Assembly (NCBI RefSeq): GCF_004136635.1
Contig: NZ_NOIU01000001.1
Span: 930,001-994,000 of the forward strand
DNA: 64,000 nucleotides
Direction of reading: 5' to 3'
From: Rothia halotolerans
GTDB lineage: Bacteria > Actinomycetota > Actinomycetes > Actinomycetales > Micrococcaceae
Below, piece by piece: positions 9,657-24,463 of this stretch. The first letter of the stretch is position 1; every line of letters begins with the position of its first letter. Both the position numbers and the translations under genes were made by a program. The notes beneath the pieces were generated by a model. That model had not been told where the DNA came from and did not search any database. It worked only from the letters and a program-made list of their open reading frames with translations.

Positions 9657-9675
9657 GGTGTTCTCCTTGATCTTG

Positions 9676-11175
9676 TCAGGCGGAGGGGACGGGGTCGGAG
9701 GCGGTCGCCTCGGCCCGGAGGGCCTGCCTGCGGGCGGCCCGGGTCCGGTAGAGGCCGAAAAGCAAGCCGCCGACGAGGGCGCCGATGAGGATCGCGCCGA
9801 ACCACAGGAACGGGTGCGTGGCGATCGGCAGGACGAGGAAGCCGCCGTGGGGCGCAGGGGACCCGGCTCCCCACAGGAGGCTCAGGATCGAGGCGATCGA
9901 GCTGCCGACCATGAGGATCGGGATGACCACCAGCGGGTTGCGGGCCGCGAAGGGGATCGCGCCCTCGGTGATGTGGGTCGAGCCGAGGATGTAGTTGACG
10001 TACCCGGCCCGGCGCTCGGCGGGCTCGAAGCCGCGGGGGAAGAGCGTGCAGGCGATCGCGGTGATCAGCGGCGGGGCGATGCACGCCGCGGAGACCGCCG
10101 CCATGAAGGTGATGTTCCCGTCGCTCAGCAGCGCGACGCCGGTGACGTAGGCCGCCTTGTTGAGCGGCCCGCCCATGTCGAAGGCGCACATGACGCCCAG
10201 GATCAGCCCCAGGATCACGGGGTTGGCGCCCTGGAACCCGGTCAGGAAGTCCTCGAGGAAGCCGGAGAACCCGGCCATCGGGGCAGAGATCAGGACGGTG
10301 ACGAGGCCGAAGACCAGGGAGCCGAGCACGGGGAAGATGAAGATCGCCTTCAGCCCGTTGAGGGCGGAGGGCATGCGGGACAGCAGCTTGGACAGCCCGA
10401 GCATCCCGTAGCCGGAGAGGAACCCGGTGACGATGCCGCCCAGGAACCCGGTGCCGTTGTTCATCGCGATCATGCCGGTGACCAGGCCGACCACCAGGCC
10501 GGGCCGCTTGGAGACGGACTCGGCGATGAAGGCCGAGAGGATCGGGACCATGAGCCCCAGGCCCACGCCGCCGATCTCGTTGAGCGCGGCCGCGAAGGAG
10601 TTGTACTCGGAGCTCTCCGGGTCGGCGGAGTAGATGCCCCAGAGGAAGGAGACGGCGAGCAGGACGCCGCCGCCCACCACGAAGGGCAGCATGTAGGACA
10701 CGCCGTTCATCAGGTGCTTGTAGATGGCCCGCAGCGCCCGGCGCGCGCCGCTGCCGCCGGTCTCGATGGAGTCGACGTCGAGCAGGTCGTGGTCCAGCGC
10801 GGCGTCGGCCCCGCCGTCCTCGCCCTGCGCGCCCTCGGCGGAGGAGGCCGCTCGGGCGCCCCGCTCGGCGGCGGCCAGGACGCGGTCGATCAGCTGGTCC
10901 GGCTCGTGGATCGCGACAGCGACGCCGACGTCGACCAGGGGCTTGCCCTGGAACCGCTCCGCCTGGACGTCCTTGTCCGCCGCGACGATGACGCCGGTCG
11001 CGCGCTCGATGTCCGCCGGGGTCAGCGCGTTCTCGACGCCGACCTGGCCGTGCGTCTCGACCTTGATCTCGATGCCGCGGGCTTCCGCAGCCTGGCTGAT
11101 CGCCTCGGCCGCCATGAAGGTGTGCGCGACGCCGGTGGGGCAGCCGGTGGCCGCGATGATGAACTGCTCCGACAT
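9676..11175 (-). CDS. fruA: PTS fructose EIIBC permease
   Basis: 499 residues. The N-terminal EIIB domain starts with IIAATGCPTGVAHTFMAAEA, whose cysteine (near residue 11) carries the phosphate. A linker rich in Ala/Asp/Glu (about residues 100-155) leads to the EIIC domain with about ten membrane segments, including the conserved GGPLNKAAY and GSTHITEGAIPFAARNP motifs. It takes up fructose and releases fructose 1-phosphate. The EIIA domain is encoded separately downstream. Confidence 0.95.
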   Translation of the reverse strand: MSEQFIIAATGCPTGVAHTFMAAEAISQAAEARGIEIKVETHGQVGVENALTPADIERATGVIVAADKDVQAERFQGKPLVDVGVAVAIHEPDQLIDRVLAAAERGARAASSAEGAQGEDGGADAALDHDLLDVDSIETGGSGARRALRAIYKHLMNGVSYMLPFVVGGGVLLAVSFLWGIYSADPESSEYNSFAAALNEIGGVGLGLMVPILSAFIAESVSKRPGLVVGLVTGMIAMNNGTGFLGGIVTGFLSGYGMLGLSKLLSRMPSALNGLKAIFIFPVLGSLVFGLVTVLISAPMAGFSGFLEDFLTGFQGANPVILGLILGVMCAFDMGGPLNKAAYVTGVALLSDGNITFMAAVSAACIAPPLITAIACTLFPRGFEPAERRAGYVNYILGSTHITEGAIPFAARNPLVVIPILMVGSSIASILSLLWGAGSPAPHGGFLVLPIATHPFLWFGAILIGALVGGLLFGLYRTRAARRQALRAEATASDPVPSA

Positions 11176-11217
11176 GGATCCGTCCTCCTTGACGAGTGGG
11201 TGTGGATGCGGAGGTGG

Positions 11218-12219
11218 CTAACCGGCCGTGAGGGGGCCGGGGGTCTTGGACAGGGGGCGCGAGGGCTCGGTGAGCGCGATCGCCGGGTCGGGGTCCCCGG
11301 CAACGGCGATGCGCTCCGTGAACTCCTCGCGCACGGGGAACAGGGTGGTCGCGGCCGAGACCGCGCTGGCCGCCCACAGGGCGGCGGTCCCGAGGCTGCG
11401 GGGGCCGAAGTCGCCGCCGGCGATGAACCCGGCGAGCAGGGCGTCCCCCGCGCCGACGGAGTTGGAGACGGGGATGTCCCGGCTGACCGCGCGGAAGGCC
11501 CCCTCGGGAGTGACGAGCAGGGAGCCGTCGGCGCCCAGGCTGGCCAGCACGGCGCCAGCGCCCATCTCCATGGCCTGCTCGGCCGCGGAGCGGACGTCCC
11601 CGAGGGTCCCGATGGTCCGGCCGGTGAGCTCGGCCAGCTCGTCGACGTTGGGCTTGACCAGGTCCGGTCGCGCCGCCAGCGCGAGGGCCAGCGGCTCTCC
11701 GGAGGTGTCCAGCACGACGCGCAGATCAGGGTTCGCCGCCCGGGCGGCCTCGATGAGCCCCGCGTAGGTGGCGGCCGGGACCGACGCCGGGAGGCTGCCG
11801 CACAGCGCGACCACCTCGGCCGATGCCGCCCGGGCCCGGACCTCCCGGGTCACCTCCGCCAACTCGTCCTCGGACAGCGCCGGGGCCGGCTCGTTGATCT
11901 TGGTCGAGGAGCCGGGGACGCGCAGCGTGATGTTGGTGCGGGTCTCCCGGCGGGTGGGGACGGTGCGGTGCGGGATGCCCGCCCGCTCGAGCTCGTCGTC
12001 GATGAAGGCCGACGCCGTCCCCGCCCCGGGCACCAGGACGTCCACCGGGACCCCGGCGCGGCTCAGCGCCCAGGCGACGTTGACGCCCTTCCCGCTGGCC
12101 TCCCGGGTCGAGGAGACGGCCCGGTTGACGCCGCCCAGCTCGAATCCCTCGACCGAGACGGTCCAGTCCACGGCCGGGGCCAGCGTCACCGTCAGCACCG
12201 GTCCGATGCGTACCTTCAT
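11218..12219 (-). CDS. fruK: 1-phosphofructokinase
   Basis: 333 residues from ATG 12219, which has GGAG eight bases upstream; an upstream in-frame start would overlap the probable operator. PfkB-family features are present: the early EASGKGVNVAWALSRAG motif and the catalytic NSVGAGDALLAGFIAG motif, where the aspartate is the base. It phosphorylates fructose 1-phosphate to fructose 1,6-bisphosphate. It is the first structural gene of the fruK-EIIBC-EIIA-aldolase operon. Confidence 0.95.
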   Translation of the reverse strand: MKVRIGPVLTVTLAPAVDWTVSVEGFELGGVNRAVSSTREASGKGVNVAWALSRAGVPVDVLVPGAGTASAFIDDELERAGIPHRTVPTRRETRTNITLRVPGSSTKINEPAPALSEDELAEVTREVRARAASAEVVALCGSLPASVPAATYAGLIEAARAANPDLRVVLDTSGEPLALALAARPDLVKPNVDELAELTGRTIGTLGDVRSAAEQAMEMGAGAVLASLGADGSLLVTPEGAFRAVSRDIPVSNSVGAGDALLAGFIAGGDFGPRSLGTAALWAASAVSAATTLFPVREEFTERIAVAGDPDPAIALTEPSRPLSKTPGPLTAG

Positions 12220-12251
12220 GGAGGCTCTCCTGAGAACTAAAAACTGCGTAT

Positions 12252-12275
12252 CCAACTTAAATAGTTGGTTTCCAA
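12252..12275. promoter_or_regulatory. Probable FruR operator upstream of fruK
   Basis: CCAACT-TAAAT-AGTTGG (12252-12268) is a perfect 6-bp inverted repeat, and TTGG-TTT-CCAA overlaps it (12265-12275). The block is AT-rich in a GC-rich genome and lies 33 bp before fruK. It is the natural site for the DeoR-family regulator encoded just upstream. Confidence 0.6.
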
Positions 12276-12491
12276 TGCTCTTAGTTGCCCATTATTGGCC
12301 CCCGGACGTGCTAACGCAAGAGCTTCACGAAGGAAGGCAAGAAAAAATCTGCTTTCGCAACACAGTGGGCGCAGTCATCCCACACCTGGAGAGGGAAGAA
12401 GACGCCGGAAGGCTGTACCCCAGGGAGGGGAAGGAGAGGCCCGAGGGCAGTCCGGGGCGGGATCGGTCCCTTCCGGATCAGCGCCGCGACA

Positions 12492-13274
12492 TCAGGCCAT
12501 GACCACCGTGATGCCGAAGGACTCCAGGCGCCGCCGCTGCTCGCGGTCCAGCCCGACGTCGGTGATCAGCACGTCGATGTCCCGGAGGGTCGCGTGCTGG
12601 GCCCCGCGCACCAGGCCGATCTTGGAGCGGTCCGCCAGCAGGATCCGCCGCTCGGCGCTCGCGAGCATCCGCCGCTTCACGGCCGCCTCGTCTGGCTGGG
12701 GCGTGGTGAGGCCGCGCTCGAAGGAGATGCCGTTGGTCCCCAGGAAGGCGACGTCGACGTTGATCTCCTCCAGCGCGCGCGTCACCGAGTCCCCGACGGT
12801 GGCCACGGTCGGCCGCCGCAGCGTCCCGCCCAGCAGCTCGACGCGCGCCTCCGGGAGGCGCAGGAGGGCCTGGGCGGTGGGCAGGGCGTTGACGTAGAAC
12901 TGCAGGGCCGAGTCCATCGGCAGCAGGCCCGCCAGGACGGCGACGGTGCTCCCGGCGTCCATCAGCGCCGAGCCCGTGCGGGGCAGGAACTCGACGGCGG
13001 CGGCCGCGATGCGCCGCTTCTCCTCGGCATAGTCGGTGCGGGCCTCCACCTCGGGCTCGAAGGTGAGCGCCTCGATCGGGACCGCACCGCCGTGGACGCG
13101 GCGCAGCCTGCCCTGGTTCTCGAGGGCGATGAGGTCCTTGCGGACGGTCTCGGTGGTGACGTTCATCTCCCGCGCCGCGGCCGCGGCGTCGATCTTCCCG
13201 GAGGCCGCCAGCGTCCGCATCAGGTCGGCCCGGCGCTCGGAGGCGCGCCGCACCGTGTGGGACTGCTGGTTCAT
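12492..13274 (-). CDS. DeoR-family transcriptional repressor of the fructose operon
   Basis: 260 residues from ATG 13274, behind a GGAGG site; in-frame codons further upstream lack one. The N-terminal helix-turn-helix (DLMRTLAASGKIDAAAAAREMNVTTETVRKDL) and the linker LRRVHGGA are DeoR hallmarks. The C-terminal sugar-phosphate-binding domain has the DAGST and LGTNGI segments. It lies 270 bp upstream of fruK on the same strand, so it is a FruR-type regulator whose inducer is probably fructose 1-phosphate. Confidence 0.9.
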   Translation of the reverse strand: MNQQSHTVRRASERRADLMRTLAASGKIDAAAAAREMNVTTETVRKDLIALENQGRLRRVHGGAVPIEALTFEPEVEARTDYAEEKRRIAAAAVEFLPRTGSALMDAGSTVAVLAGLLPMDSALQFYVNALPTAQALLRLPEARVELLGGTLRRPTVATVGDSVTRALEEINVDVAFLGTNGISFERGLTTPQPDEAAVKRRMLASAERRILLADRSKIGLVRGAQHATLRDIDVLITDVGLDREQRRRLESFGITVVMA

Positions 13275-13466
13275 GGATCCCTCCTGAGGCGCCGCGCGGT
13301 ACGGCACCAGTCTATGCGCCGCGCGGCGGGCGGCGGCGCAGGGGCCTGGACCAGAGGGTTTCGGCTCGGGCTATGAAAACTATAAAGAAGTACACAAGAA
13401 ACAGCGGCCGTCTCCACCAGTACGTGCGCTCGATGACGAGCGACGCCGCCGCGTCCGCCCCGCGAC

Positions 13467-13835
13467 TCACGCCCAGGCCCGCATATGCTCTCCGATGAGC
13501 CGGCCGCTGTCCTCCAAGGTGCGCTGCCCCTGCGCGACGCTCATGATGAGGTCATAGGCGGTGTCCGAGTCCATCTGCAGCCGCAGGCCGTTGACCCTCA
13601 GGAACGCGCCCATCAGCACCAGAGCGGTCCTCTTGTTGCCGTCGATCATGGCGTGATTGCGAGTGATCGACTCGGTCTGCGCCGCGGCCGCGAGCTCGAG
13701 CCGAGGGTAGGCGTACTCGCCGAAGACCCTGGTCACCGGGCGGTCCAACGCCGACTCCAGGAGGCCGGCGTCGCGCACGTGGAATCCCAGGCGGCCGGTG
13801 ACCGCCAGCGCCGCCTCGATCGCCACCCGCTGCAT
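13467..13835 (-). CDS. doc: Doc/Fic-family toxin (death-on-curing)
   Basis: 122 residues, the length usual for Doc. It has the Fic/Doc motif NHAMIDGNKRTALVLMG (H-x-[FI]-x-[DN]-G-N-[KR]-R) near residues 66-82, containing the catalytic histidine. Doc phosphorylates EF-Tu and stops translation. Its ATG overlaps the antitoxin stop by one base (TGATG), so the two are translationally coupled. Confidence 0.9.
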   Translation of the reverse strand: MQRVAIEAALAVTGRLGFHVRDAGLLESALDRPVTRVFGEYAYPRLELAAAAQTESITRNHAMIDGNKRTALVLMGAFLRVNGLRLQMDSDTAYDLIMSVAQGQRTLEDSGRLIGEHMRAWA

Positions 13836-14041
13836 CAGGAGTCGGCCAGACGCCTGAGGGTCTCGGCGTGATCGGTCATGATGTGCTCGGCGCCCTCCAT
13901 GACCAGGCGCTGGTGCTCGCGCTCCTTGAGCATGGCCCGCACGCTCTCGAGCGCCAAGGCGTGCTTGGTGCTGTGCTCCGCCTCGGCCTGCGCTTCGAGG
14001 GCCTGGTCGAGGTCATCGGGGAGCCGGAGGAGAAAAGCCAT
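13835..14041 (-). CDS. Antitoxin partner of Doc
   Basis: 68 residues. The N-terminal half, FLLRLPDDLDQALEAQAEAEHSTKHALALESVRAML, has the shape of a ribbon-helix-helix DNA-binding domain (beta strand, two helices). The C-terminal acidic helix (HQRLVMEGAEHIMTDHAETLRRL) would bind and neutralise the toxin. It precedes the toxin gene, as in most such modules. No ribosome site is visible before the ATG. Confidence 0.8.
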   Translation of the reverse strand: MAFLLRLPDDLDQALEAQAEAEHSTKHALALESVRAMLKEREHQRLVMEGAEHIMTDHAETLRRLADS

Positions 14042-14054
14042 ATCACTATGATAT
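14040..14054. promoter_or_regulatory. Operator of the toxin-antitoxin pair, ATATCA-CTA-TGATAT
   Basis: A perfect 6-bp inverted repeat covers the antitoxin start codon and the stop codon of the upstream deacetylase gene. Its position fits autorepression by the antitoxin. The TA pair is thus inserted directly against the end of a long operon. Confidence 0.55.
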
Positions 14055-15080
14055 CTGCCCCTTCAACGCCCGTGAAGAGTCGAGCTCGTCCTTCAACCGC
14101 ACGAACATCTCATACGGATGACCCGGCTCGGGCTCCATCCTGCCCGACCACTCGGCGACGGTCTCACAGGTGCCGAACCAGGCATCGCCTTCCTCTCGGA
14201 TCTCCGCCAGGAACTCGCGCAGGAAGGCCGCCCGCCCCGGCGTCCCCATGACCTCGGCATTGAGCCGCAGGTGGAACAGCGTGCCGTAGCGGAGCGCGCC
14301 GCGGTACTCCAGCTCCCAGTTCTCCCGCACCGTCTCGATCGGGGAGATCCGCGACTGGCCCGGCGGGAAGGGCGGGTCCAGGTTGTAGCCGAAGTACTGG
14401 TGGTCCTCCAGCTCGTACCGGAAGGGGATCTCCACCAGGCCGCCGACGCCGCAGCGGAACGGCCGCTCGTCGGCGGGCAGGGAGGAGCTCCACCGGAACC
14501 CGGCCTCGCGGGCGGCCTCGGGGAACCCGTGGGCCCACTCGCCGGCGGGGATGCGGAAGCCCGCGCCGAGGGCGGACGACACGCCGGTGGCCGCACCGCC
14601 GATGGATGGACCGTCGGCAGAAGGGCTGCCGGCGGAAGGGCCGATGGCGACTGCATCGCCGTCGGATGCGCGGTGGCCGTCCTCACCGCCCGATGCGAAC
14701 GCGGCATCCCCGCCGGCCAGTACCTCCTCCAGCGCGGTCCGCCCGTCGACGATCTCCGCGAGCTGCTCCTCCAGGCTCAGCCCGTTGAAGTCCAGGTGCA
14801 GGTCCCCGTGGGAGCTCACCGCGTGCCCCCGGGCGGCGATCTGGCGGACCAGCCGGGGGTTCTCGCGCGCGGTCAGGCCCGGGACGAACCAGTCGGCGGC
14901 GAGGCCGGCGTCGTCGAGCACCCGCAGCAGCCGCGCCGCGCCCTCGTCCAGGCCGTAGCGCCCGACCGAGCGGGACTTCTCCCGGCCCGCGTTCTCGGGG
15001 GCGGCGGAGCGGAACGGCGCGTCGCCGTCGAGGTCCACCGTCACCAGGACCCCGCAGGACTTCCCTTCGGGCCACCTCAT
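14046..15080 (-). CDS. Polysaccharide deacetylase-fold hydrolase (PuuE-like), second copy
   Basis: 344 residues from ATG 15080 (GGAGG seven bases upstream; ATGA overlap with the gene before). NodB-fold motifs are visible: motif 1 VTVDLDG, motif 2 GHAVSSHGDLH (HxxxH metal ligands), and GFRIPAGEW. A low-complexity Asp/Gly/Ser/Ala insert of about 45 residues separates motif 2 from GFRIP and is absent from the sister protein. It shares the GTPGR motif with that protein. This group includes enzymes cutting acyclic amides and imides rather than chitin, so an N-acyl, N-formyl or carbamoyl substrate is as likely as a polysaccharide. It has no signal peptide, hence cytoplasmic. Confidence 0.85.
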   Translation of the reverse strand: MRWPEGKSCGVLVTVDLDGDAPFRSAAPENAGREKSRSVGRYGLDEGAARLLRVLDDAGLAADWFVPGLTARENPRLVRQIAARGHAVSSHGDLHLDFNGLSLEEQLAEIVDGRTALEEVLAGGDAAFASGGEDGHRASDGDAVAIGPSAGSPSADGPSIGGAATGVSSALGAGFRIPAGEWAHGFPEAAREAGFRWSSSLPADERPFRCGVGGLVEIPFRYELEDHQYFGYNLDPPFPPGQSRISPIETVRENWELEYRGALRYGTLFHLRLNAEVMGTPGRAAFLREFLAEIREEGDAWFGTCETVAEWSGRMEPEPGHPYEMFVRLKDELDSSRALKGQIS

Positions 15081-16006
15081 GCTCGTTCCTCCCCGCACTC
15101 ACGGGCGACCTCGCGCGCCGTCCTGAACCTCACAGCCCCCTCCTCCAGCAGCCCGGCCAGGAACCGCTCCAGCTCGATCAGCCGCCCCGGCGTCCCGATG
15201 ACCTTGGGATGCCAGATGCTGGCCGTGGTCAGCCCCTCGGCCGCGGCGGCCCGGGCCTCCAGGGCCCAGGTGGCGAAGGTCGTCCGGTAGGAGGCCACCC
15301 GGTCCAGCCCGCGCGGGAAGTCCGGCGCCCGGTGGTAGGCGAAGTAGGCGTAGTCGTCGAACATCGACTTGGCGGGGATCTCCACCAGCGGCGCGTCCCG
15401 GCGCAGGAACGGCCGGTCGCCGCTGCGCAGGGAGCTCGAGTAGGTGTACCCGGCCTCGGCGAGCAGGGCCGGCGTGGCGGGGTCGTAGTCGCCCGACGGC
15501 GCCCGGAAGCCCTCCGCCCGCTCGCCCAGCACCGAGAGGAAGGACGCCTGGGCGGATTCCAGCACCTCCCGCTGCTCTTCGGCCGGACGGCCGAAGAACT
15601 GCTCGTGGAGGTCCCCGTGGCCGGAGACCTCGTGCCCCTCCTCCCGGATGCGGAGGCACAGCTCGGGCCAGGTCCGCACCACCCAGCCGGGGGTGAAGAA
15701 GGTGGCCCGGATGCCGAGCTCCCGCAGGATCCCGAGGATGCGCGGCACGGCCCGGTGCGGCCCGTAGGCGCCCTGGCAGAAGAAGCCGGGCTTGTCCCAC
15801 AGCTCCCCGCTGACCAGGGCGTCCCCGGAGGGGCCGTCCAGGTCGAAGCACAGGACGAAGGTCCCGGCGGCCTCAGCCGACGCCGCCCTGCGGGCACCCT
15901 CGTGGCTGGTCATCAGCGACGGAGAACCGTTGGTCCCCGCCGCCGACTCACGGCCGACGCCGAGCGACGAGTCGCCCCGGGCCGAGCCCCGCACGTCACG
16001 CCTCAC
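15077..16006 (-). CDS. Polysaccharide deacetylase-fold hydrolase (PuuE-like), first copy
   Basis: Up to 309 residues from GTG 16006, which overlaps the binding-protein gene by 11 bp; a shorter form from the internal ATG (MTSHEGARR) is possible. Motifs: VLCFDLDG (catalytic and metal aspartates), GHEVSGHGDLHEQF (HxxxH), GFRAPSGDY, and WHPKVIGTPGR near the end. No secretion signal is present. It probably hydrolyses a C-N amide bond in the compound brought in by the adjacent ABC importer; this is inferred from context. Confidence 0.87.
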   Translation of the reverse strand: MRRDVRGSARGDSSLGVGRESAAGTNGSPSLMTSHEGARRAASAEAAGTFVLCFDLDGPSGDALVSGELWDKPGFFCQGAYGPHRAVPRILGILRELGIRATFFTPGWVVRTWPELCLRIREEGHEVSGHGDLHEQFFGRPAEEQREVLESAQASFLSVLGERAEGFRAPSGDYDPATPALLAEAGYTYSSSLRSGDRPFLRRDAPLVEIPAKSMFDDYAYFAYHRAPDFPRGLDRVASYRTTFATWALEARAAAAEGLTTASIWHPKVIGTPGRLIELERFLAGLLEEGAVRFRTAREVARECGEERA

Positions 16007-16853
16007 CCTTCACCCCGTTGATCTCCGGCGCCCGGGCGCCGGACTCGATGCCGTACTTCTCCAGGATCCGGACCATCGTGCCGTCGTCGTACATGTCCTG
16101 GAAGGCGTCCCGGATGGCCTCGGAGAGCTGGGTGTTGTCCTTGCGCACCGCCGCGCCGAAGGGCAGGGCCGTGAGGTCGGAGAGGACCACCTCGTACTTG
16201 CCGGGCTCGGTGGTGGCGAAGTACGCGAGGTTCTCGCGTCCCTGCACGGCGGCCACCGCGCGCCCCTGGTCCAGCTGCAGGCGCGCCGCGGCGCCCGAGT
16301 CGGTGGCCACGATGCTGATCTCGGGCAGCCCGTTGGCCTTGCAGACCTCGTCGTTGTAGTCCAGCAGCGAGGTGTAGTAGTCCGTCTTGGTGCTCACCGA
16401 GACCGGCTGCCCGCAGATGTCGGCGTCCTCCCGGAACCTCCCGGCGTTCTCGGGCAGGGTGTAGAACTGGCCCACCGACTGGTAGTAGTCCACGAAGTCC
16501 ACGGTCTTCTGCCGGACCGGGGTGTCCGAGATGCCGGAGAACACCACGTCCACGCGATCGGTCCGCACGGAGGTGATCAGCTGGTCGAACTTCTGCTCCT
16601 CGAACTGCACCTCCATGCCCATCCGGCGGCCGGCCTCGCGGACCAGCTCGACGTCGGCGCCCACCAGCTCGTTGTCGTCGTCCCGGTACTCCATGGGCGG
16701 GAAGTCCGGGGACATGCCGACGATCAGGGTGCCGGGGATGACGGTCTTCTCGCTGCGGTCGACGTCGGCGGCCGGGATGCAGCCGGTGAGGACCAGCACC
16801 AGGGCGGCGGCGAGCGCGGCGAGCATCCCGCCCCGTCGGGTACGCGTTGTCAT
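15996..16853 (-). CDS. Amino acid ABC transporter substrate-binding lipoprotein (family 3)
   Basis: 285 residues. A lipoprotein signal ends in LVLTGC (cysteine near residue 25). The mature part has the family 3 pattern: GTLIVGMSPDFPPMEY at its start, EVQFEEQKFDQLITSVRTDRVDVVFSGISDTPVR in the middle, and GAAVRKDNTQLSEAIRDAF near the end. It should bind a polar amino acid or amino-acid-like compound and deliver it to the permease encoded upstream in the operon. It is separated by 10 bp from the ATPase gene. Confidence 0.93.
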   Translation of the reverse strand: MTTRTRRGGMLAALAAALVLVLTGCIPAADVDRSEKTVIPGTLIVGMSPDFPPMEYRDDDNELVGADVELVREAGRRMGMEVQFEEQKFDQLITSVRTDRVDVVFSGISDTPVRQKTVDFVDYYQSVGQFYTLPENAGRFREDADICGQPVSVSTKTDYYTSLLDYNDEVCKANGLPEISIVATDSGAAARLQLDQGRAVAAVQGRENLAYFATTEPGKYEVVLSDLTALPFGAAVRKDNTQLSEAIRDAFQDMYDDGTMVRILEKYGIESGARAPEINGVKGEA

Positions 16854-16863
16854 GGCCTTCTCC

Positions 16864-17661
16864 TCACAGCACTCGGGAGAGGAAGGCCCGGGTGCGCTCG
16901 TGCTGCGGGTCGTCGATCACCGCATGGGGCGGGCCCTGTTCGATGATCTCGCCGTTGTCCATGAAGACCACCCGGTCGGCGACCTCGCGGGCGAAGCCGA
17001 TCTCGTGGGTCACCACGATCATGGTCAGCCCCTGCTGGGCCAGCTTCTTCATGACCTCCAGGACGTCGCCCACCAGCTCGGGGTCCAGGGCCGAGGTGGG
17101 CTCGTCGAAGAGCATGAGCGCCGGGTCCATGGCCAGGGCCCGGGCGATCGCGACCCGCTGCTGCTGACCGCCGGAGAGCTGGCCGGGGTACGCCGAGGCG
17201 CGGTCCTTCAGCCCCACGGTGTCCAGCAGCTCCAGGGCCCGCTCCCGGGCCTTCCGGGAGGCGACGTGCCGGACCAGGCGCGGGGCGTGCGTGATGTTCT
17301 CCAGCACCGTCATGTGCGGGAAGAGGTTGAAGCGCTGGAAGACCATGCCCATGGTGCGGCGCTGCCGCGCGAGCTCGGCCTCCTTCAGCTCCCGGAGGGC
17401 GCCCGCCGAGCGCGCGTCCTTGCGGAAGCCGATGACCTCCTCGTCCACGATGACGAAGCCGGAGCTCGGCTTCTCGATGTGGTTGATGCACCGCAGCAGC
17501 GTCGACTTCCCCGAGCCGGAGGGGCCCAGGATGCAGACCACCTCGCCGGAGGCGATCTTCAGGTCGATGCCGCGCAGCACCTCGTTGGAGCCGTACGACT
17601 TGCGGATCTTCTCGAGCCTGACCAGCGGGTCCGTGCTCGTCGCGGTATCGGTGGTGCTCAC
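16864..17661 (-). CDS. Amino acid ABC transporter ATP-binding protein
   Basis: 265 residues from GTG 17661, with GGAGG five bases upstream. Walker A is GPSGSGKST, the signature is [17 protein letters not shown], Walker B is [13 protein letters not shown], and the switch histidine is in MIVVTHE. It is a GlnQ-type polar amino acid ATPase. The start overlaps the stop of the permease gene in GTGA, so the two are translationally coupled. Confidence 0.95.
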
Positions 17662-18560
17662 GGGTTCCTCCTGGAGGTGCCGAGGACGGTCTGGATGCGG
17701 CTGAGCAGCCCGACGCCGGCGGTCTGCGCCGCGTGCCCCCGGCCGAAGTGCCTCTCGATGTAGTACTGGACGATCGAGAGGACCGAGACCGCCAGCAGGT
17801 ACCAGATGGCCGTGACGATCAGCAGCTCGATGATGAGGTTGTTGACGAGGTAGATGTGCTGGGCCTCGTTGAGGATCTCGGTGGCGCCGATCGCGGAGGC
17901 CAGCGACGTCGTCTTGAGCATGCCGATGGTCTCGTTGCCGATGGGCGGCAGGATCACGCGCATCGCCTGCGGGAGCACCACGGTGCGCATCGAGCTCAGC
18001 CCGGTCAGGCCCAGAGCCTTGGCCGCCTCGTCCTGCCCGCGGTCCACGGAGAGGATGCCGCCGCGCACCACCTCGGAGGTGTACGCCGCCTGGTTGAGCC
18101 CGAGCCCCAGGATGGCCGCGACGATCGGCGTCACGATGTCCACGGTGCGGCCCTCGTAGATACCGGGGATGCCGTAGCGCGGGAAGACGATCGCGATGTT
18201 GAACCACAGCAGCAGCTGCAGGTAGACCGGGGTGCCGCGGAAGAACCAGACGTAGAGCCAGGCGATCCAGCTGACCACGGGGTTGTGGGCCAGGCGCATC
18301 ACGGCGATGAGGATGCCGAGGACGATGCCGATGGCCATCGAGATGACCGTCAGGTAGATCGTCACCATGAAGCCGGTGAGGATCGACTTCGCGGTCAGGT
18401 ACTCCCCGACCGTGGCCCAGTCGATGTCCGCGCGGGCGAAGGCGAGGACGACCGAGAGCAGCAGGAGCACGGTGACCACGGCCGCCACGTACCTGCCGAC
18501 GTGCTTGTTCCGGATGACCCGGTAGGACTCGACGTTCGTTCCGGTGGGGACGGTGCTCAT
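17658..18560 (-). CDS. Amino acid ABC transporter permease (HisM/GlnP type)
   Basis: 300 residues, ATG 18560 overlapping the lyase stop in ATGA. About five to six membrane segments follow a 27-residue cytoplasmic N-terminus. The EAA loop, [33 protein letters not shown], is typical of polar amino acid permeases and docks with the ATPase. The protein is the only permease in the operon, so it probably works as a homodimer. Confidence 0.94.
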
Positions 18561-20008
18561 TGCGGTGACCTGCCGTTCTGGGATGCGCTGCGGGAAGCTT
18601 CGAGGAGGTCGGCGAGCGCGGCCTGCTGCTCGCGGACCCGCTCCGGGGAGGTGCCGTTGGCCCCGGTCCGCCGGGCGACCGCGGACTCCAGCGTCAGGCG
18701 CTCCAGCACCTCCGGGGTCAGCCGCTCGTCGATCGCCCGGAGGTCCTCGGCGGTGAGGTCCTCCAGCCCGATGTCGCGGGCCTCGCAGTGCACCACGGAG
18801 CGGCCGGCGACGTCGTGCGCCTCGCTGAACGGCAGGCCCTGCTCGGCCAGCCAGTCGGCGATCTCGGTGGCGAGCGTGAAGCCCTGGACGGCCTGCCGAC
18901 GCATGGCCCCGGCGTCGAACCCCACGGTGCGGACCAGCCCGGTCAGGGCCGGGAGGATCGTGCGGAGAGTCCCGGCGGTGTCGAAGACGTAGTGCTTGTC
19001 CTCGGAGAGGTCGCGGTTGTAGGCGAAGGGGAGGGACTTCAGGGTGGCGAGCATGCCGGAGAGGTTGGCGATCAGCCGGCCGGTCTTGCCGCGGGCGAGC
19101 TCGGCGATGTCCGGGTTCTTCTTCTGCGGCATGATCGAGGAGCCGGTGGACCAGGCGTCGTCCAGCCGCGCCCAGCCGAACTGCTGAGAGGACCAGAGGC
19201 AGATCTCCTCGCACAGGCGGGAGAGGTCGGCGCCCAGCATCGCGCCGGCGTAGAGGAAGTCGACGACGTGGTCGCGGCTGGAGACGGCGTCGATGGAGTT
19301 GCGCACGACGTCGTCGTACCCCATGTCCGCCGCCATGGCCCGCTGGTCCCCGGCCAGGGTGGAGCCTGCCATCGCGGCCGCCCCGAGCGGCGAGGCCATG
19401 CAGGCCAGCCGGGCGTTCTCGAGGCGGGTGAGGTCCCGGGCCAGCGGGAAGGCGTGGGCCAGCAGCTGCTGGGAGAAGAGGATGGGCTGCGCGTTCTGCA
19501 GGTGGGTGAACCCCGGCGCGACGACGCCCTCGACCTCCCGGGACCGGGCCAGCAGGGTCTCGGTCAGCTCCCGCACGCCCTCGGCGATCTCGGGGATCAC
19601 GCGGCGCAGGTGCAGGCGGAGGTCGTTGGCGGTCTGGTCGTTGCGGGAGCGGCCAGCCCGGATCTTCCCGCCCAGGGGCCCGAGCCGGGCGATGAGCTCG
19701 CGCTCGAGGTAGCCGTGCACGTCCTCGTCCTGCGGCAGAGGGCGGATGGCGCCCTCGCGGTGGTCGACCACCAGCTGCTCGAGGGCGGCGGCGATGCTCG
19801 CGCGCTCCTCGCCGGTGATGATCCCGGCCCGCTCCAGCTCCCCCGCGTGGGCCAGCGAGCCGGCGACGTCCTCGGGGACCAGGGAGAAGTACTGCTCCGG
19901 GGAGCGGGAGAGGCGCTCCAGGGCGGGTGCGCTGGCGCCGGTGAACCGGCCTCCCCAGAGCTTGCCCTCCGCGTGGGCTCCACCGTCATGTACGTGTGTG
20001 TCCGTCAC
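18557..20008 (-). CDS. Argininosuccinate lyase-family C-N lyase
   Basis: 483 residues from GTG 20008 (GAGAGGCGAG just upstream); ATG 20041 in frame lies inside a palindromic operator and lacks a site. The fumarase/aspartase superfamily signature [12 protein letters not shown] and the FTHLQNAQP catalytic histidine segment are intact. Some substrate-side positions differ from actinobacterial ArgH as I remember it: [17 protein letters not shown] here, against GRSRNDQVAT followed by a different stretch. It heads a GntR-controlled operon with an amino acid importer and two amide-hydrolase-like proteins, not an arginine operon. It may release fumarate from an N-substituted aspartate, as EDDS lyase does. 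True ArgH remains possible. Confidence 0.8.
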
Positions 20009-20026
20009 CGTCTCGCCTCTCGATCC

Positions 20027-20045
20027 ATAATTGTCATACAATTAT
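20027..20045. promoter_or_regulatory. GntR operator 1, ATAATTGT-CAT-ACAATTAT
   Basis: A perfect 8-bp inverted repeat with a 3-bp centre contains TTGT-N3-ACAA, the classic GntR/FCD-family half-site pattern. It lies between the divergent lyase and GntR genes, right before the lyase start. Confidence 0.8.
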
Positions 20046-20083
20046 TCGTACAGTCTGGTGGCACAGGTCACTCATGTCAAGAG

Positions 20084-20098
20084 GATTGTACGACAATC
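20084..20098. promoter_or_regulatory. GntR operator 2, GATTGT-ACG-ACAATC
   Basis: A perfect 15-base palindrome with the same TTGT-N3-ACAA core as operator 1; the centres are 55 bp apart. It lies 17 bp before the GntR start, so it suits autorepression, and the pair may loop or bind cooperatively. Confidence 0.8.
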
Positions 20099-20114
20099 GG
20101 GAGAGTTTACTCAG

Positions 20115-20843
20115 ATGAAACAGAATTCGCGGAACGACGCGGCCTCGCCCGCGGCTCCCCTCGCGCCGGTGGGCTCCTCCCCGGAACGCCCGGCCCCGGG
20201 GACGGACTCCTCCCCGGTGACCGCCGAGATCGTCCGCAGGGTCCGCGCCGCGATCGTCGAGGGGACCCTGGGCTCGGGGGCCGAGCTGACGGAGAAGTGG
20301 CTGACGCAGACCTACGGCTCCTCGCGCACCACCGCCCGGGACGTGCTGCGGCTGCTGGCCAAGGAGCGGCTGGTGGAGCTGCGCCCTTACCGCAGCGCCC
20401 GGGTGCGCTCCTTCACCGGGCGGGAGATCGAGGACATCTTCGAGGCGCGCCTACTCCTGGAGGGTCACGCGGCCCGCGGTTGCGCCTCGGCCTCGGGAGA
20501 AGCCCTGGAGGCCCTGCGGAAGGCGCTGGAGGCCTACGTGGACGTCGTCGGCGGCGACGACGTCATGGAGACCTCGGGGGCCCACCGCGACCTCCACGTC
20601 GCCCTGGTCGCGACCACCGGGAACACCGCCCTGATGCGCTGCGAGGACGACCTCATGCTCGACTCGACCCTGATCGTGGAGGTCGTCAACTTCAAGAGGG
20701 ACGACATCGCCAAGATGCGCCGCGAACACGAGCGGCTCGCAGCCGCTTTTCTGGAGCGCGACGCCGAGCGTGCCGAGCAGCTGGTGCGCGAACACCTGCG
20801 GATGGTCAGCAGGGCCGCCAAGGACGACGTCGACGCCGTCTGA
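20115..20843 (+). CDS. GntR-family (FCD subfamily) transcriptional regulator
   Basis: 242 residues from ATG 20115, behind GGGAGAG. After a Pro/Ala-rich leader of about 35 residues comes the winged helix (VRAAIVEGTLGSGAELTEKWLTQTYGSSRTTARDVLRLLAKERLVELRPYR). The C-terminal FCD domain has EARLLLEGHAARG and the metal-ligand pattern D/H at AHRDLHVALV and REHERLAAAF. It is divergent from the lyase-transporter-hydrolase operon and probably represses it until the substrate or a breakdown product binds. Confidence 0.92.
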   Translation: MKQNSRNDAASPAAPLAPVGSSPERPAPGTDSSPVTAEIVRRVRAAIVEGTLGSGAELTEKWLTQTYGSSRTTARDVLRLLAKERLVELRPYRSARVRSFTGREIEDIFEARLLLEGHAARGCASASGEALEALRKALEAYVDVVGGDDVMETSGAHRDLHVALVATTGNTALMRCEDDLMLDSTLIVEVVNFKRDDIAKMRREHERLAAAFLERDAERAEQLVREHLRMVSRAAKDDVDAV

Positions 20844-20933
20844 GCCGGACCGCGTCGGGCCCGGCGGATCGAGCCGCGATGAGAGGGCGGCACGCGCCGG
20901 CCGGGGAGATCCCGGAGCGCGCCTCATGTGCCC

Positions 20934-21863
20934 CTAGATCTCCGCGACCATCAGCGGATCCGACGTCGGGCTCTCGGACCCCCCCTCGGGCTCGACCGTG
21001 ACGGCGAGCGCCTGGGCGCCCTCGAGGTCGCCGTCCACCCAGACGCCGGCCGCCCCGGCGTCGAAGGTCGCGTCGGGCACCGGAGTGCCGTCCTCCATGA
21101 GCCACAGCTGGTACTGCCTGCCCTCGCCCGGGTCGGCCACGCCGGAGGCCACGAGCAGGACTGCGTCGCGGTCGCGGGAGGCGATCACGGTCGCCGTCCC
21201 GCCGCCGTCCATCTCGACGTGCCGCACGGCGACGTCGGCCGCGGCGAGCAGGCGCTCCTGGCGCTGCCGCTCCTGCTCATGCTCCTGCGCGACGACCCGC
21301 TGCTCCTGCTGGCCCGAGTGCTGGCCCAGCGCCCAGCCGCCCAGGGCCACGCCGGGGACGACCACCGCGGCCGCGGCCGCCAGGACCCAGCGGCCGCGGC
21401 GGCGTCGGGCGTCCAGGGAGTGCACGGCGGCCGTCGCCTGCGGGTCCGCGTGCCGCGGGCCCGTCGGAGCGGACGTCGCGGGGGAGGATGCGGTGCCCGC
21501 CGCGTCCTGGTCGGCCGCGGTCGACGCGCGGGCGGAGGCGGTGTCGTCCTCGCGGTCCGCGGAGGAAGAGGCGACGACGGTGCCGGAGGCTCCCTCGACC
21601 TCCCCGGCATCGGGCCGCGTCGCACGGATGGCCCCCAGGACGCTCTCGCGCAGCTCGGGCGGCGGATCCACCGCGGCGGCGCCCGCCAGCTCGGCGCCGG
21701 TCTCCCGGAAGGAGTCGACCTCCTCGCGGCACCGGGTGCAGCCGGCGAGGTGCTCCTCGAAGGCCCGGGCCTCGGCGGCGTCGAGGGCGTCGACGGCGTA
21801 GAGCACGGCGTCCGCGTGGACGTCGTCGGCCCGGCCGCTCCCATCAGCTCGTTCGTTCACCAT
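20934..21863 (-). CDS. rskA: Anti-sigma-K factor RskA-like membrane protein
   Basis: 309 residues. The N-terminal zinc-finger anti-sigma domain has HLAGCTRCREEV (HxxxCxxC). A Ser/Ala/Thr-rich cytoplasmic linker follows (residues 70-140), then one membrane segment (WVLAAAAAVVVPGVALGGWALG), then the extracellular RskA domain with GRQYQLWLMEDGTPVPDATF. It holds the sigma factor inactive until cut by regulated proteolysis. Its start overlaps the sigma gene stop by 7 bp. Confidence 0.92.
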   Translation of the reverse strand: MVNERADGSGRADDVHADAVLYAVDALDAAEARAFEEHLAGCTRCREEVDSFRETGAELAGAAAVDPPPELRESVLGAIRATRPDAGEVEGASGTVVASSSADREDDTASARASTAADQDAAGTASSPATSAPTGPRHADPQATAAVHSLDARRRRGRWVLAAAAAVVVPGVALGGWALGQHSGQQEQRVVAQEHEQERQRQERLLAAADVAVRHVEMDGGGTATVIASRDRDAVLLVASGVADPGEGRQYQLWLMEDGTPVPDATFDAGAAGVWVDGDLEGAQALAVTVEPEGGSESPTSDPLMVAEI

Positions 21864-22471
21864 CTCTCCCCCAATGCCGCCCGCAGGCCGACCAGCCCGT
21901 CCCGGATGCGGGACTTGGCCGTGCCCAACGGTATGTCTAAGCGCTCGGCCACCTCACGGTGACTGTAGCCGCGGAAGTACACCAGGCAGACGGCCTCCCG
22001 CTGGATCCGGCTCAGGTGCTCCAGGCCGGCGCGGACCTCGCCCTCGTCCAGCGTCCTCTCCACCTGACCCCAGGTGGAGTCGCCGGGGCCGGGCTCCGCG
22101 CGGTCCGCCTCGTACCGCTCCTCGCGGTCGCGCTCCCGCTGGCTGGAGCGGACCCTGTCCACCGCCCGCCGGTGCGCCATCGTGCACAGCCAGGCCCTGA
22201 CGCTGCCCCGCTCGGGGTCGAAGCGCGCCGACTGCTGCCAGGCCATGAGGTACACCTCCTGGACGACCTCCGCCGCGAGATCCCGCGAGCGCAGCATGCG
22301 GAGCACGACGCCGTACACGAGCGAGGCCGTCGCGTCGTAGAGCTGCGCGAAGGCTCCCTCGTCACTCGTGGCGCTGCGACGCACCAGCTCGGCATGGGAC
22401 GCCTCACCGACCGCGGCGGACCCCTCCGAGGGTCCGTCGCCGCCGTCCGGGGCGTCGGGGCCTGAGCTCAC
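21857..22471 (-). CDS. sigK: ECF sigma factor, SigK-like
   Basis: 204 residues from GTG 22471. Codons upstream in frame would run through the promoter and are unlikely. Region 2 is seen in LYDATASLVYGVVLRMLRSRDLAAEVVQEVYLMAWQQ and region 4 in YFRGYSHREVAERLDIPLGTAKSRIRDGL. Linkage with an RskA protein places it in the SigK group. Its own promoter region carries the same motif as that of the divergent CHRD-protein gene, so it is probably self-activated. Confidence 0.9.
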   Translation of the reverse strand: MSSGPDAPDGGDGPSEGSAAVGEASHAELVRRSATSDEGAFAQLYDATASLVYGVVLRMLRSRDLAAEVVQEVYLMAWQQSARFDPERGSVRAWLCTMAHRRAVDRVRSSQRERDREERYEADRAEPGPGDSTWGQVERTLDEGEVRAGLEHLSRIQREAVCLVYFRGYSHREVAERLDIPLGTAKSRIRDGLVGLRAALGERW

Positions 22472-22583
22472 GTGTTCTCGCTCTCCGCTGCGTGGTGGGG
22501 TGTCCGCCGGGAGGCGGTGCGCCCATCGAACTATGCCATATGTCACCTCGGCCTTCGACGGGCCTCGCCGCCTCATGCCCATA

Positions 22584-22610
22584 GTTCGGCACCGGGGGAA
22601 AGGGAGATGG
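22584..22610 (-). promoter_or_regulatory. SigK-type promoter of sigK-rskA
   Basis: Read on the minus strand: CCATCT, 15 bases, then CCGAAC. It agrees with the published mycobacterial SigK consensus CCATCC/CCGAAT as I recall it, with a slightly shorter spacer. The extended -10 CGGTGCCGAAC is identical to that of the divergent promoter at 22746-22772. Confidence 0.7.
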
Positions 22611-22745
22611 GTCCGCTCTGCCCGGAAGGTCCCGGGAGGTCCGGGAAGGGCAGCATCGCGCCGACGAGTGCGCGGCTCCCGTCGACGCCGGCGCGCCACG
22701 GAGAGTGCGGCCCAGAGAAATCTCAGAAAAATCACAACGCCCACC

Positions 22746-22772
22746 CATCCACCCCCTCAGCGGTGCCGAACA
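22746..22772 (+). promoter_or_regulatory. SigK-type promoter of the CHRD protein/sortase genes
   Basis: CCATCC at 22746-22751, a 15-base spacer, and CCGAAC at 22767-22772. It shares the 11-base string CGGTGCCGAAC and the exact spacing with the promoter of sigK. The gene start is 57 bp downstream, leaving room for a 5' leader with a GAGGAG site. Confidence 0.72.
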
Positions 22773-22829
22773 TCACACGTACGCTCCGGAACCGGGACGT
22801 ACGCCGCACATACCTGAGGAGAGATTCCG

Positions 22830-23651
22830 ATGCGCACGTCAACGTTCCTCGCAGCACCCGCCCTGGCGCTCGGCGCCCTTGCCATGGCGGCGGCCCCCGC
22901 CGCCGCCCACGAGGGCCACGGAGGCCACGAAGGGGCCTCCACTTACAGCAGCCAGGGGTCCTGGACCTCCATGGCGACCCTGAACTCCATGAACAACAGC
23001 GGCACCACCGGTGACGCGACCGTTCAGGTCGACGGCAACGAGGCCACCGTGACCATGCACGTGCAGGGTGCGGCCGAGACCTTCATGGACGGGCCCTTCC
23101 CGCACGCGCAGCACATCCACATCGGCGCCCAGGGCGTCTGCCCTCCCCCCGAGGCCGACATGAACGGCGACGGCGCCGTGAACGTGGCCGAGGGTCACGA
23201 CTACTACGGCATGATCGCCAGCTCGCTGACCACCGAGGGCGACACCGGCGCCGACTCGGGCCTCGCGGTGGACCGCTTCCCCGGCGGCAGTGAGTACACC
23301 TACGAGCGGACCCTCCAGGTCGACGACGCCACCAAGCAGGCCATCGAGGACGGCACCGCCGTCGTCGTGGTCCACGGCGTGGATCCGATGAACCTCAGCG
23401 AGCAGGCCCAGAACGAGATGAGCGAACTGGACCCGTCGCTGCCGCTGGCCGCGACCCTCCCGGCCGCGTGCGGCACGCTGACGGCCACGCAGATGGACGG
23501 CATGCCGGCCGGTGGCGCCGAGACCGGCGTCGCGCAGGGCACGGACGACACCGCCGCGATCGCGGGCGTGAGCGCCGGTGCCGCCGGCCTGGTCGCCCTC
23601 GGCGGCGGCGCGCTGTACCTGCGTCGTCGTCGCGCGGCGGCGCAGGACTAG
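22830..23651 (+). CDS. CHRD-domain-like surface protein with C-terminal membrane anchor
   Basis: 273 residues. A Sec signal peptide (ALALGALAMAAAPAAAHEG) is followed by a His/Gly-rich start HEGHGGHEG. The body resembles CHRD domains: a TVQVDGNEATVTMHVQG strand pair, then PHAQHIHIG and CPPPEADMNGDGAVNVAEG, where DMNGDG looks like a calcium site. The C-terminus has a hydrophobic helix (AGVSAGAAGLVALGGGALYL) and RRRR, but I see no clear LPxTG. It is the probable target of the SigK homologue and lies 21 bp before the sortase gene. His-rich ends suggest metal (copper?) contact; that is conjecture. Confidence 0.8.
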   Translation: MRTSTFLAAPALALGALAMAAAPAAAHEGHGGHEGASTYSSQGSWTSMATLNSMNNSGTTGDATVQVDGNEATVTMHVQGAAETFMDGPFPHAQHIHIGAQGVCPPPEADMNGDGAVNVAEGHDYYGMIASSLTTEGDTGADSGLAVDRFPGGSEYTYERTLQVDDATKQAIEDGTAVVVVHGVDPMNLSEQAQNEMSELDPSLPLAATLPAACGTLTATQMDGMPAGGAETGVAQGTDDTAAIAGVSAGAAGLVALGGGALYLRRRRAAAQD

Positions 23652-23672
23652 CCGGAACGGGCGGACGGCGTC

Positions 23673-24407
23673 ATGACGCGGTCATCGACGGGCGGCCGCG
23701 GGGGCCTCATGGCCTCCGCGGCCGCCGCCGTCCTGCTCCTGGCCGGATGCTCGGCGGGGGCAGGGGACGAGGACGGCGCGGACGCTCCCGCCTCGTCCGC
23801 GGCCTCGCAGTCCGCTGCGGCCGCTCCCGGCGCGGGGCCGACCGCCGCCGCGCCGGGGCCCTCCGAGACGGGTCCTCCCGAAGCTGGCCCCTCCGGGCCG
23901 GCACCCTCCGCCGAGGCGTCGTCGCCGGATGCTCCCGATCCCCCGGCGGTCATGGACCCCTCGCCGCCGACGGCCCTGAGGATCCCCTCGATCGGCGTCG
24001 GGACCCTCACCCTGCACCTGGGCCTGCAGGAGGACGGCGCGCTCGAGGTGCCCCCGGACGGACCCGGCGCACCCGCGAGCTGGTACGAAGGCTCCCCCGT
24101 CCCCGGCGAGCGCGGACCCTCCGTCTTCCTGGGCCACGTCAACGCGACCGACGGCGGGCCCGGCGTCTTCGCGGACCTGCGCTCCCTGGCTCCCGGCGAC
24201 ACCGTGGAAGTGGCCAGGGAGGACGGGTCCACCGCCACGTTCGCCGTGGACCGCGGCGAGGCCTACGCCAAGGACGACTTCCCGACGCTCCAGGTCTACG
24301 GCAACACCGACGACGCCGAGCTGCGCCTGATCACCTGCGACGGCTACGACCCCGCGACCGGCCTGTTCGACGACAACTACGTGGTCTACGCGAGCCTGGT
24401 CCGCTGA
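23673..24407 (+). CDS. Class F sortase (lipoprotein)
   Basis: 244 residues. A lipobox LLLAGC lies near residue 28, followed by an Ala/Pro/Ser-rich linker of about 65 residues. The sortase domain starts at ALRIPSIGVGTLTLHLG; catalytic residues appear as His in FLGHVNAT, Cys in LRLITCDGY, and Arg in YASLVR at the end. Class F sortases are actinobacterial and have few known substrates. Co-transcription with the CHRD-like protein suggests that protein as substrate or partner, although its sorting signal is not obvious. Confidence 0.9.
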   Translation: MTRSSTGGRGGLMASAAAAVLLLAGCSAGAGDEDGADAPASSAASQSAAAAPGAGPTAAAPGPSETGPPEAGPSGPAPSAEASSPDAPDPPAVMDPSPPTALRIPSIGVGTLTLHLGLQEDGALEVPPDGPGAPASWYEGSPVPGERGPSVFLGHVNATDGGPGVFADLRSLAPGDTVEVAREDGSTATFAVDRGEAYAKDDFPTLQVYGNTDDAELRLITCDGYDPATGLFDDNYVVYASLVR

Positions 24408-24408
24408 C

Positions 24409-24452
24409 GCGGCGGCGCGGCGCCTCCCCGGAGGGTCGCACCGCGCCGCCGC
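24409..24452. terminator. Bidirectional hairpin between convergent genes
   Basis: A perfect 12-bp stem, GCGGCGGCGCGG with its complement, encloses a 20-base loop between the sortase gene and the convergent DyP peroxidase gene. It can serve both. Confidence 0.6.
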
Positions 24453-24463
24453 GGGGCTTCGGA

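Follow-up and report, generated by a model that had tools for sequence, protein, structure and literature searches.

What do an ArgH-type lyase, an amino acid importer and two deacetylase-fold proteins accomplish together? This question is raised by six genes in a 64 kb stretch of the Rothia halotolerans genome (3.04 Mb; coordinates C3:930001-994000; hereafter the window), which occupy 20008 to 14046 of the minus strand in the order lyase, permease, ATPase, substrate-binding protein (SBP), deac1 and deac2 (Table 1). A sequence-only reading had described them as a unit divergent from an FCD-type GntR gene with two matching operators, and indeed all six reading frames and that of the regulator are open and the families are as described there. 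We propose, with about as much belief as doubt, that this cassette serves the inducible catabolism of an N-substituted aspartate, i.e. an N-(1,2-dicarboxyethyl) compound, most likely guanidino and partly in the form of a cyclic lactam, from which fumarate would be released. A substrate of this kind is suggested because four features agree: the fumarate-type lyase, the succinate-backbone family of the MmgE/PrpD protein found in most relatives, an SBP that seems to lack an alpha-ammonium site, and occasional guanidino hydrolases. The cassette would be a new pathway built from known parts. In line with the claim that no pathway with this set had been described, we found no paper in the open-access literature joining argininosuccinate lyase, polysaccharide deacetylase and a transporter or MmgE; most subscription papers fall outside that scope, which makes this weak evidence of novelty.

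Conservation of the cassette

A deac1 profile was used to scan GTDB representative contigs, yielding 129 relatives, the best 80 of which were kept and supplemented with four plasmid loci to give 84 loci. All loci were collected via deac1, so this gene is present by design, and 42 of the 84 belong to Burkholderia, Paraburkholderia, Caballeronia or Trinickia, making the rows far from independent. Partner genes, ureohydrolases included, were sought by tblastn with one query protein each, a procedure that may miss distant ones. The hosts fall into four classes, namely Actinomycetes and alpha-, beta- and gammaproteobacteria, and the order lyase-permease-ATPase-SBP-deac1-deac2-MmgE/PrpD is intact in 60 of 84 loci. 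Since gene order is conserved across phyla, chance grouping is excluded, and the check for conserved co-occurrence suggested by the sequence-only reading thus came out in its favor.

Other arrangements were found as well. Four loci (Ensifer, Mesorhizobium and two Brucella) have the order permease-ATPase-SBP-deac1-deac2-MmgE-lyase with a different ArgH-type lyase, two (Phytohabitans and Dactylosporangium) have lyase-deac1-deac2-SBP-permease-ATPase, and seven carry the lyase elsewhere within the locus. No lyase is visible in a further eight, five of which end at a contig edge. MmgE is not adjacent in three loci (L030, L045 and L078, the last of them cut), and deac2 comes after deac1 in all 84. 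The cassette is rare in the genus Rothia, with any deac1 match in three of 35 genomes and the deacetylase pair in two.

Five Paraburkholderia-type loci (L059, L080, L081, L090 and L102) have the cassette split into two blocks about 1 kb apart, deac1-deac2-MmgE-SBP and lyase-permease-ATPase-SBP, each with a divergent LysR gene. Rothia santali encodes a further deac1-like protein (29% identity; L025, G021:C37, 5926-13979); genes for another amino acid ABC ATPase and permease, the second such pair, lie some 6 kb away. No cassette surrounds the weaker deac1 relative of Thermomicrobium (37%; L021).

An ArgH-derived lyase with two altered positions

The window lyase shares with ArgH (TIGR00838; Mycobacterium tuberculosis 6iem, delta-2 crystallin) the fold, the domains, a score above the cut-off (484 bits vs 279.5), the catalytic motifs and the expected release of fumarate; it differs in standing without argG, in having a second argH in the same genome, in two residues and in forming a separate clade. 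The catalytic motifs, whose roles we take to be those assigned to them in ArgH, were located by alignment, SSIMPQKK and THLQ being kept in the cassette rows shown. Among the five Lyase_1 proteins of the Rothia genome is another ArgH (C5:306823-308184; 568.9 bits), directly preceded by the only argG (C5:305367-306533). The separate argG-argH pair that the sequence-only reading had proposed looking for is thus present, and the window gene was rejected as the only or biosynthetic argH. Judged by position, the window lyase is not the cell's arginine-pathway ArgH. Likewise, at least two ArgH proteins exceed the cut-off in 27 of 28 cassette-bearing genomes (those of 26 of the best 80 loci, the window genome and R. 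santali); the exception (G060/L109) is a metagenome-assembled genome (MAG) whose cassette contig ends before the lyase.

It is hardly credible, in our view, that the window gene encodes a further ArgH for arginine synthesis, under separate regulation, whose neighbors (an amino acid importer and two hydrolases) have nothing to do with it. This would account for a protein above the argH equivalog cut-off, but not for a gene set that is syntenic over four classes, for a cassette lacking argG when the only argG adjoins the other argH, or for changes at two otherwise fixed ArgH positions.

In a phylogenetic tree, the cassette lyases form one clade (27 rows including the window; support 99/100), which groups with actinomycete ArgH rows (92/95); one row, L120, is a mis-cut frame with a branch length of 10 and was disregarded. 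EDDS lyase (Chelativorans BNC1, 6g3d), put forward by the sequence-only reading as a precedent for the lyase step, is likewise a C-N lyase of the ArgH superfamily and acts on N-substituted aspartates. However, the window lyase matches it with 155 bits as compared to 451 bits for M. tuberculosis ArgH, and the ordinary ArgH of the same genome, taken as a control, gave 175 and 669 bits, respectively. An EDDS-lyase-like identity was therefore rejected, and the precedent is a poor one.

The two altered positions were tabulated against 29 canonical rows (28 genes, the gene of the window genome being included twice, as L002 and as the partial L027). Gln at duck Q328 (window position 335) is found in 29 of 29 canonical and in 0 of 73 cassette rows, the latter having Ala (55), Ser (15) or Gly (3). 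Asp at duck D33 (window position 40) is equally invariant in the canonical rows and replaced by Phe (39) or Tyr (34) in all 73 cassette rows; the window lyase itself has Ser335 and Tyr40. We take Q328 to be among the substrate-binding residues of ArgH; the open-access literature yielded no source for ArgH substrate contacts or for argininosuccinate catabolism. The residue pattern reads as if the amine half of the lyase substrate differs from arginine.

This bears on an alternative that we consider unlikely, namely that the substrate is argininosuccinate itself, together with its two anhydrides and epimers, that the cassette scavenges it to arginine and fumarate, and that the replaced lyase residues do no more than admit other diastereomers. 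The clear derivation of the lyases from ArgH speaks for it, as do the spontaneous formation of two anhydrides from argininosuccinate and the canonical Gln and Asp retained in four of four alphaproteobacterial lyase rows; the loss of both residues from all 73 cassette lyases speaks against it.

The alphaproteobacterial lyases (L019 12113, L105 13071, L107 13110, L108 13107) constitute an ArgH-type subfamily of their own, with Tyr323 changed to Phe and a QQESK motif. Their genes stand at the opposite end of the operon, replacing the usual cassette lyase, and the proteins nest among canonical rows in the tree. A separate case is the Pseudomonas syringae genome of L049 (G050), which encodes two full ArgH proteins, a third over the cut-off (390 bits) and an ArgH-like protein (215 bits); its extra ArgH-type genes (C57:122796-124085 and 127624-128913) are about 3.5 kb apart.

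The MmgE/PrpD protein of most relatives

The seventh gene of the cassette, which is not beside it in Rothia, encodes an MmgE/PrpD protein. The single copy compared with solved structures, that of Burkholderia pyrrocinia (L017), is nearest to iminodisuccinate (IDS) epimerase (138.5 bits, 3.4e-39), followed by cis-aconitate decarboxylase (108.6 bits), with 2-methylcitrate dehydratase far behind (26.7). Six residues comprising the dicarboxylate-binding set and the catalytic His (H90, E93, H102, H157, K207 and K273 in L017 numbers) are present in 77 of 77 proteins. PMC12290011 names this conserved dicarboxylate-binding set and gives a 1,4-dicarboxylate backbone as common to the characterized MmgE/PrpD substrates. 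Going by these residues, the protein most likely acts on a succinate-backbone substrate by an enolate route, and it may be an epimerase. Two MmgE/PrpD genes elsewhere in the Rothia genome (C4:431511-432233 and C4:14284-15024) exceed the Pfam cut-off and match L017 with E-values of 1e-18 and 2e-8; they were considered as a displaced seventh gene and discarded at 31% and 25% identity.

Because the relatives add an IDS-epimerase-like gene, the IDS route (epimerase plus C-N lyase) fits better as a precedent than EDDS lyase does. The cassette resembles IDS degradation in Agrobacterium BY6 (epimerase 2hp0 plus C-N lyase) in that MmgE/PrpD stands beside a C-N lyase in most relatives and its dicarboxylate-binding residues are kept. 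It differs in having Asn in place of Tyr145, the proposed second base of IDS-epimerase, in 77 of 77 proteins, in the lack of MmgE/PrpD beside the window cassette, and in two extra hydrolases and sometimes a ureohydrolase.

We also weighed whether the cassette degrades an aminopolycarboxylate chelator (IDS, ethylenediaminedisuccinate (EDDS), or the aspergillomarasmine/toxin A type) or its lactam to a plain amine or amino acid, a role that strikes us as quite improbable. IDS breakdown reportedly requires an epimerase and a stereoselective C-N lyase, going by the title of Cokesa 2004, which PMC7347537 cites, and among solved structures it is IDS-epimerase that L017 resembles most. EDDS lyase, moreover, makes many N-substituted aspartates, according to PMC12363623. 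Yet the cassette lyase is no nearer to EDDS lyase than ordinary ArgH is, the Tyr serving as second base is not kept, and the ureohydrolase neighbors of some loci would be left unexplained. No IDS gene cluster showed up among the open-access papers listed.

Two deacetylase-fold proteins of unequal conservation

Measured against the residue motifs of the NodB/CE4 family, all 83 deac1 rows have the full set (D-x-D, HxxxH, R and HP). In deac2, both metal His and the metal Asp survive in 13 of 83 rows. These 13 are all actinomycete, with the window and R. santali among them, and the other 70, some of them actinomycete too, have lost this triad. The HP motif of deac2 retains its His in 70 of 83 rows and has Asn instead in the window. 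Of the two PuuE-like hydrolases in the sequence-only reading, the fold thus stands but the equality of the two does not. The pattern suggests that deac1 is the catalyst and deac2 its partner, though in Rothia metal could be bound by deac2 as well. Taken by itself, deac2 is a case of metal-site loss by a paralogue within a single operon family.

Among solved structures, the deac1 and deac2 profiles match best to 3rxz, 3qbu, 1z7a, 3s6o and PuuE (3cl6), and the deac1 profile, built from six relatives, ranks 3rxz first, followed by 3qbu, 1z7a and 3cl6. PuuE allantoinase (TIGR03212) has in common with the cassette proteins the deacetylase fold, the lack of a visible signal peptide in deac1 and deac2, and presumed ring-amide chemistry. 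In contrast, deac1 and deac2 score 40.3 and 36.3 bits with this model, far under its cut-off of 424.6, and an allantoinase identity was discarded accordingly.

Amide hydrolysis, as proposed in the sequence-only reading, is supported, but the N-acyl substrate named there is not singled out, a PuuE-like opening of a ring amide being at least as likely. If the lyase came before the two deacetylase-fold proteins, or played no part in their reaction, as in the deacylation of an N-acyl amino acid, the import would be of an N-acyl conjugate rather than a lactam. N-deacetylases are indeed numerous in the NodB/CE4 fold, and 3qbu, which ranks second among the solved matches of deac1, bears the name peptidoglycan deacetylase (3rxz is named only 'polysaccharide deacetylase'). 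However, the remaining long matches are 3rxz, 1z7a, PuuE 3cl6 and 3s6o, other chitin or peptidoglycan deacetylases listed match over only ~80 to 130 positions, and MmgE/PrpD and the lyase both indicate a succinyl part. We give this explanation a slim chance.

An importer without the Asp expected at the ammonium site

The SBP_bac_3 protein, HEQRo permease and ATPase are together the families that define a polar amino acid ABC importer, and the cassette shares all three with polar amino acid and opine importers (PF00497 plus HEQRo permease). Across 108 SBP rows, which include the second SBPs of some loci, Arg114, which we take to be the carboxylate anchor of the family, is kept in 107. Position 205 is Gly in 103 rows (the window among them), Ser in three and Asn in two. 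The ancestral amino-acid SBP 4zv1 has Asp aligned here, a residue that presumably binds the alpha-ammonium group in amino-acid SBPs; its lack in 108 of 108 rows is what distinguishes the cassette SBP from these importers. The SBP seems not to use an alpha-ammonium group, a pattern that would suit an N-substituted amino acid ligand. Asp205 in 0 of 108 rows also counts against argininosuccinate scavenging.

Ureohydrolase neighbors

Ureohydrolase genes adjoin four of the 84 loci, in about three lineages. In Phytohabitans (L057) and Dactylosporangium (L085), an agmatinase-family gene comes after the ATPase gene; in a Rhodospirillales MAG (L051), one comes after MmgE and a second SBP. Beside the Paracoccus cassette (L020) lie genes for a true arginase (287.9 bits vs 227.6) and for an ornithine cyclodeaminase. 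Across the 28 cassette genomes, PF00491 has 91 matches in ~193 Mb, from which ~0.1 ureohydrolases would be expected within 1.5 kb of the 84 loci as compared to the four observed, a distance chosen after seeing the data and thus a guide only. The nearest solved relatives are guanidinobutyrase (271.8 bits) and proclavaminate amidinohydrolase (271.7) for the L057 protein and 3-guanidinopropionase (287.8 bits) for that of L051. Both proteins are nearer to guanidinobutyrase or guanidinopropionase than to arginase, which argues against the scavenging of argininosuccinate; the arginase and cyclodeaminase of Paracoccus, with no cassette lyase in the stretch, argue for it.

A proposed pathway and the points against it

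Under the reading that we prefer, catabolism of an N-substituted aspartate, the ABC importer would take up this compound, supplied partly as a cyclic lactam. Its N-(1,2-dicarboxyethyl) group would most likely sit on a guanidino nitrogen, making it similar to argininosuccinate but for the usual arginine end. The ring amide (of an imidazolone, dihydropyrimidinone or imide) would be hydrolyzed by deac1, aided by deac2, in the way that PuuE acts on the hydantoin ring of allantoin; MmgE/PrpD, which most hosts have, would adjust the configuration at the succinyl alpha-carbon; and the ArgH-derived lyase would eliminate fumarate and free the amine, which, if guanidino, may pass to a ureohydrolase or arginase. 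N-(1,2-Dicarboxyethyl) compounds are known to cyclize, as argininosuccinate does to its anhydrides, and a ring carbon beside a carbonyl racemizes easily; therefore, a PuuE-fold hydrolase and a stereochemistry enzyme would be expected to travel with the lyase. The import, hydrolysis and fumarate-releasing type of lyase that the sequence-only reading had seen in the layout are supported.

A more specific version is tentative, and we rather doubt it: a widespread, undescribed pathway for lactam N-succinyl-guanidino compounds, with ring opening by a CE4-fold enzyme and its mostly degenerate partner, a reset of the alpha-carbon by MmgE/PrpD, fumarate release by an ArgH-derived lyase whose amine pocket has changed, and a ureohydrolase splitting the guanidino product. 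If it holds, the cassette lyase is systematically misannotated as argininosuccinate lyase, and correcting this recurring argH error, which can mislead predictions of arginine prototrophy, would matter beyond the locus. More generally, the proposed catabolism would assign a function to a gene set spanning Rothia, Streptomyces, Pseudomonas syringae and Burkholderia, extend the known reactions of the deacetylase fold and of MmgE/PrpD proteins, a family still largely uncharacterized, and direct attention to a compound in the environment that is taken up by many bacteria.

Several observations weigh against catabolism of a guanidino N-substituted aspartate. L020, L048 and L064 have no lyase within the fetched stretch and are not cut by a contig end; these, together with the four lyases with canonical Gln and Asp, mean that no single fixed substrate can be read from the lyase pocket. 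That the changed lyase and SBP positions touch the substrate at all is our assumption. In neither Rothia species does MmgE/PrpD stand beside the cassette, and it was not found in L057, L085 or L045; these gaps and the Asn at the Tyr145 position weaken the case for epimerization. The ureohydrolase link is limited to four loci. Finally, the ureohydrolases of L057, L085 and L051 pass the NCBIfam agmatinase model and that of L020 the arginase model, and such names, all given above the cut-off, would fit an amine that is agmatine or arginine.

Transcription unit and operators

Table 1 Features of the Rothia cassette and its regulator (window positions).
Feature	Position	Strand or symmetry	Family and remarks
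ArgH-derived C-N lyase	18557..20008	-	TIGR00838; Lyase_1 + ASL_C2; open reading frame (ORF) extends to TTG 20041
Polar amino acid ABC permease	17658..18560	-	BPD_transp_1; HEQRo_perm_3TM 68.2 vs cut-off 42.2
Polar amino acid ABC ATPase	16864..17661	-	ABC_tran; NCBIfam TcyN, EhuA and GlnQ nearest, all below their own cut-offs
SBP_bac_3 binding lipoprotein	15996..16853	-	PF00497; LTGC lipobox read in the sequence
deac1, NodB/PuuE-fold hydrolase	15077..16006	-	PF01522 (Polysacc_deac_1); alternative start ATG 15913
deac2, paralogous deacetylase-fold protein	14046..15080	-	PF01522 (Polysacc_deac_1); alternative start GTG 15098
FCD-type GntR regulator, divergent	20115..20843	+	PF00392 + PF07729; ORF extends to TTG 20031
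Operator 1, ATAATTG-TCATA-CAATTAT	20027..20045	perfect inverted repeat	directly upstream of the lyase start
Operator 2, GATTGT-ACG-ACAATC	20084..20098	perfect inverted repeat	directly upstream of the regulator start

Overlaps occur at four of the five junctions, close to the claim that nearly all genes overlap by 4-11 bp: lyase/permease and permease/ATPase by 4 bp each, SBP/deac1 by 11 bp if deac1 starts at GTG 16006, and deac1/deac2 by 4 bp from ATG 15080 or 22 bp from GTG 15098. The ATPase/SBP junction, with a 10-bp gap, is the sole one that does not overlap. This layout supports one transcription unit of six genes. The lyase is likelier to start at GTG 20008 than at TTG 20041, and the regulator at ATG 20115; TTG 20031 falls inside operator 1. 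A scan of 13800-20950 for consensus promoters and terminators gave no site at the operon start, and one promoter-like (14076-14048) and two terminator-like sites elsewhere.

Operators were searched for in the window, in R. santali and in nine further actinomycete loci. The core common to both sites, ATTGT-N3-ACAAT (ATTGTNNNACAAT), occurs twice in the 64 kb (mean of 0.00 in 100 shuffles). R. santali has both sites at the same 55-bp spacing and with the core conserved. The shorter core TTGT-N3-ACAA is present in the intergenic region of three of the nine other loci (Leucobacter L032 and Streptomyces L036 and L052); none was found in the remaining six (L031, L033, L034, L037, L038 and L087). The GntR protein may well regulate the cassette through these operators. 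A GntR gene adjoins the cassette in ten actinomycete loci, a cupin-helix-turn-helix (HTH) gene is near it in L057 and L085 (the same family also occurs at L041 and L043), and 56 loci, most of them proteobacterial, have a LysR gene no more than 2.5 kb away; control would thus pass to a GntR, LysR or cupin-HTH regulator according to lineage.

Neighboring genes

No tRNA gene was found between 5000 and 30000 of the window, and G+C content shows no step suggestive of an island from 9000 to 26000. In Pseudomonas loci, flanking genes encode an MMSDH-type aldehyde dehydrogenase, a 3-hydroxyisobutyrate-dehydrogenase-like protein, a quinone oxidoreductase and a class II aldolase; these were annotated and then set aside as local context. 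In the window, deac2 is directly followed on the minus strand by a gene for a Fic/DOC-family protein (13467-13835; HAMIDGNKRTA motif, PF02661 with 41.6 bits). A small partner ORF without a Pfam match, extending to 14041, lies upstream of it on the same strand, and the two (13467-14041) probably constitute a Doc-type toxin-antitoxin pair.

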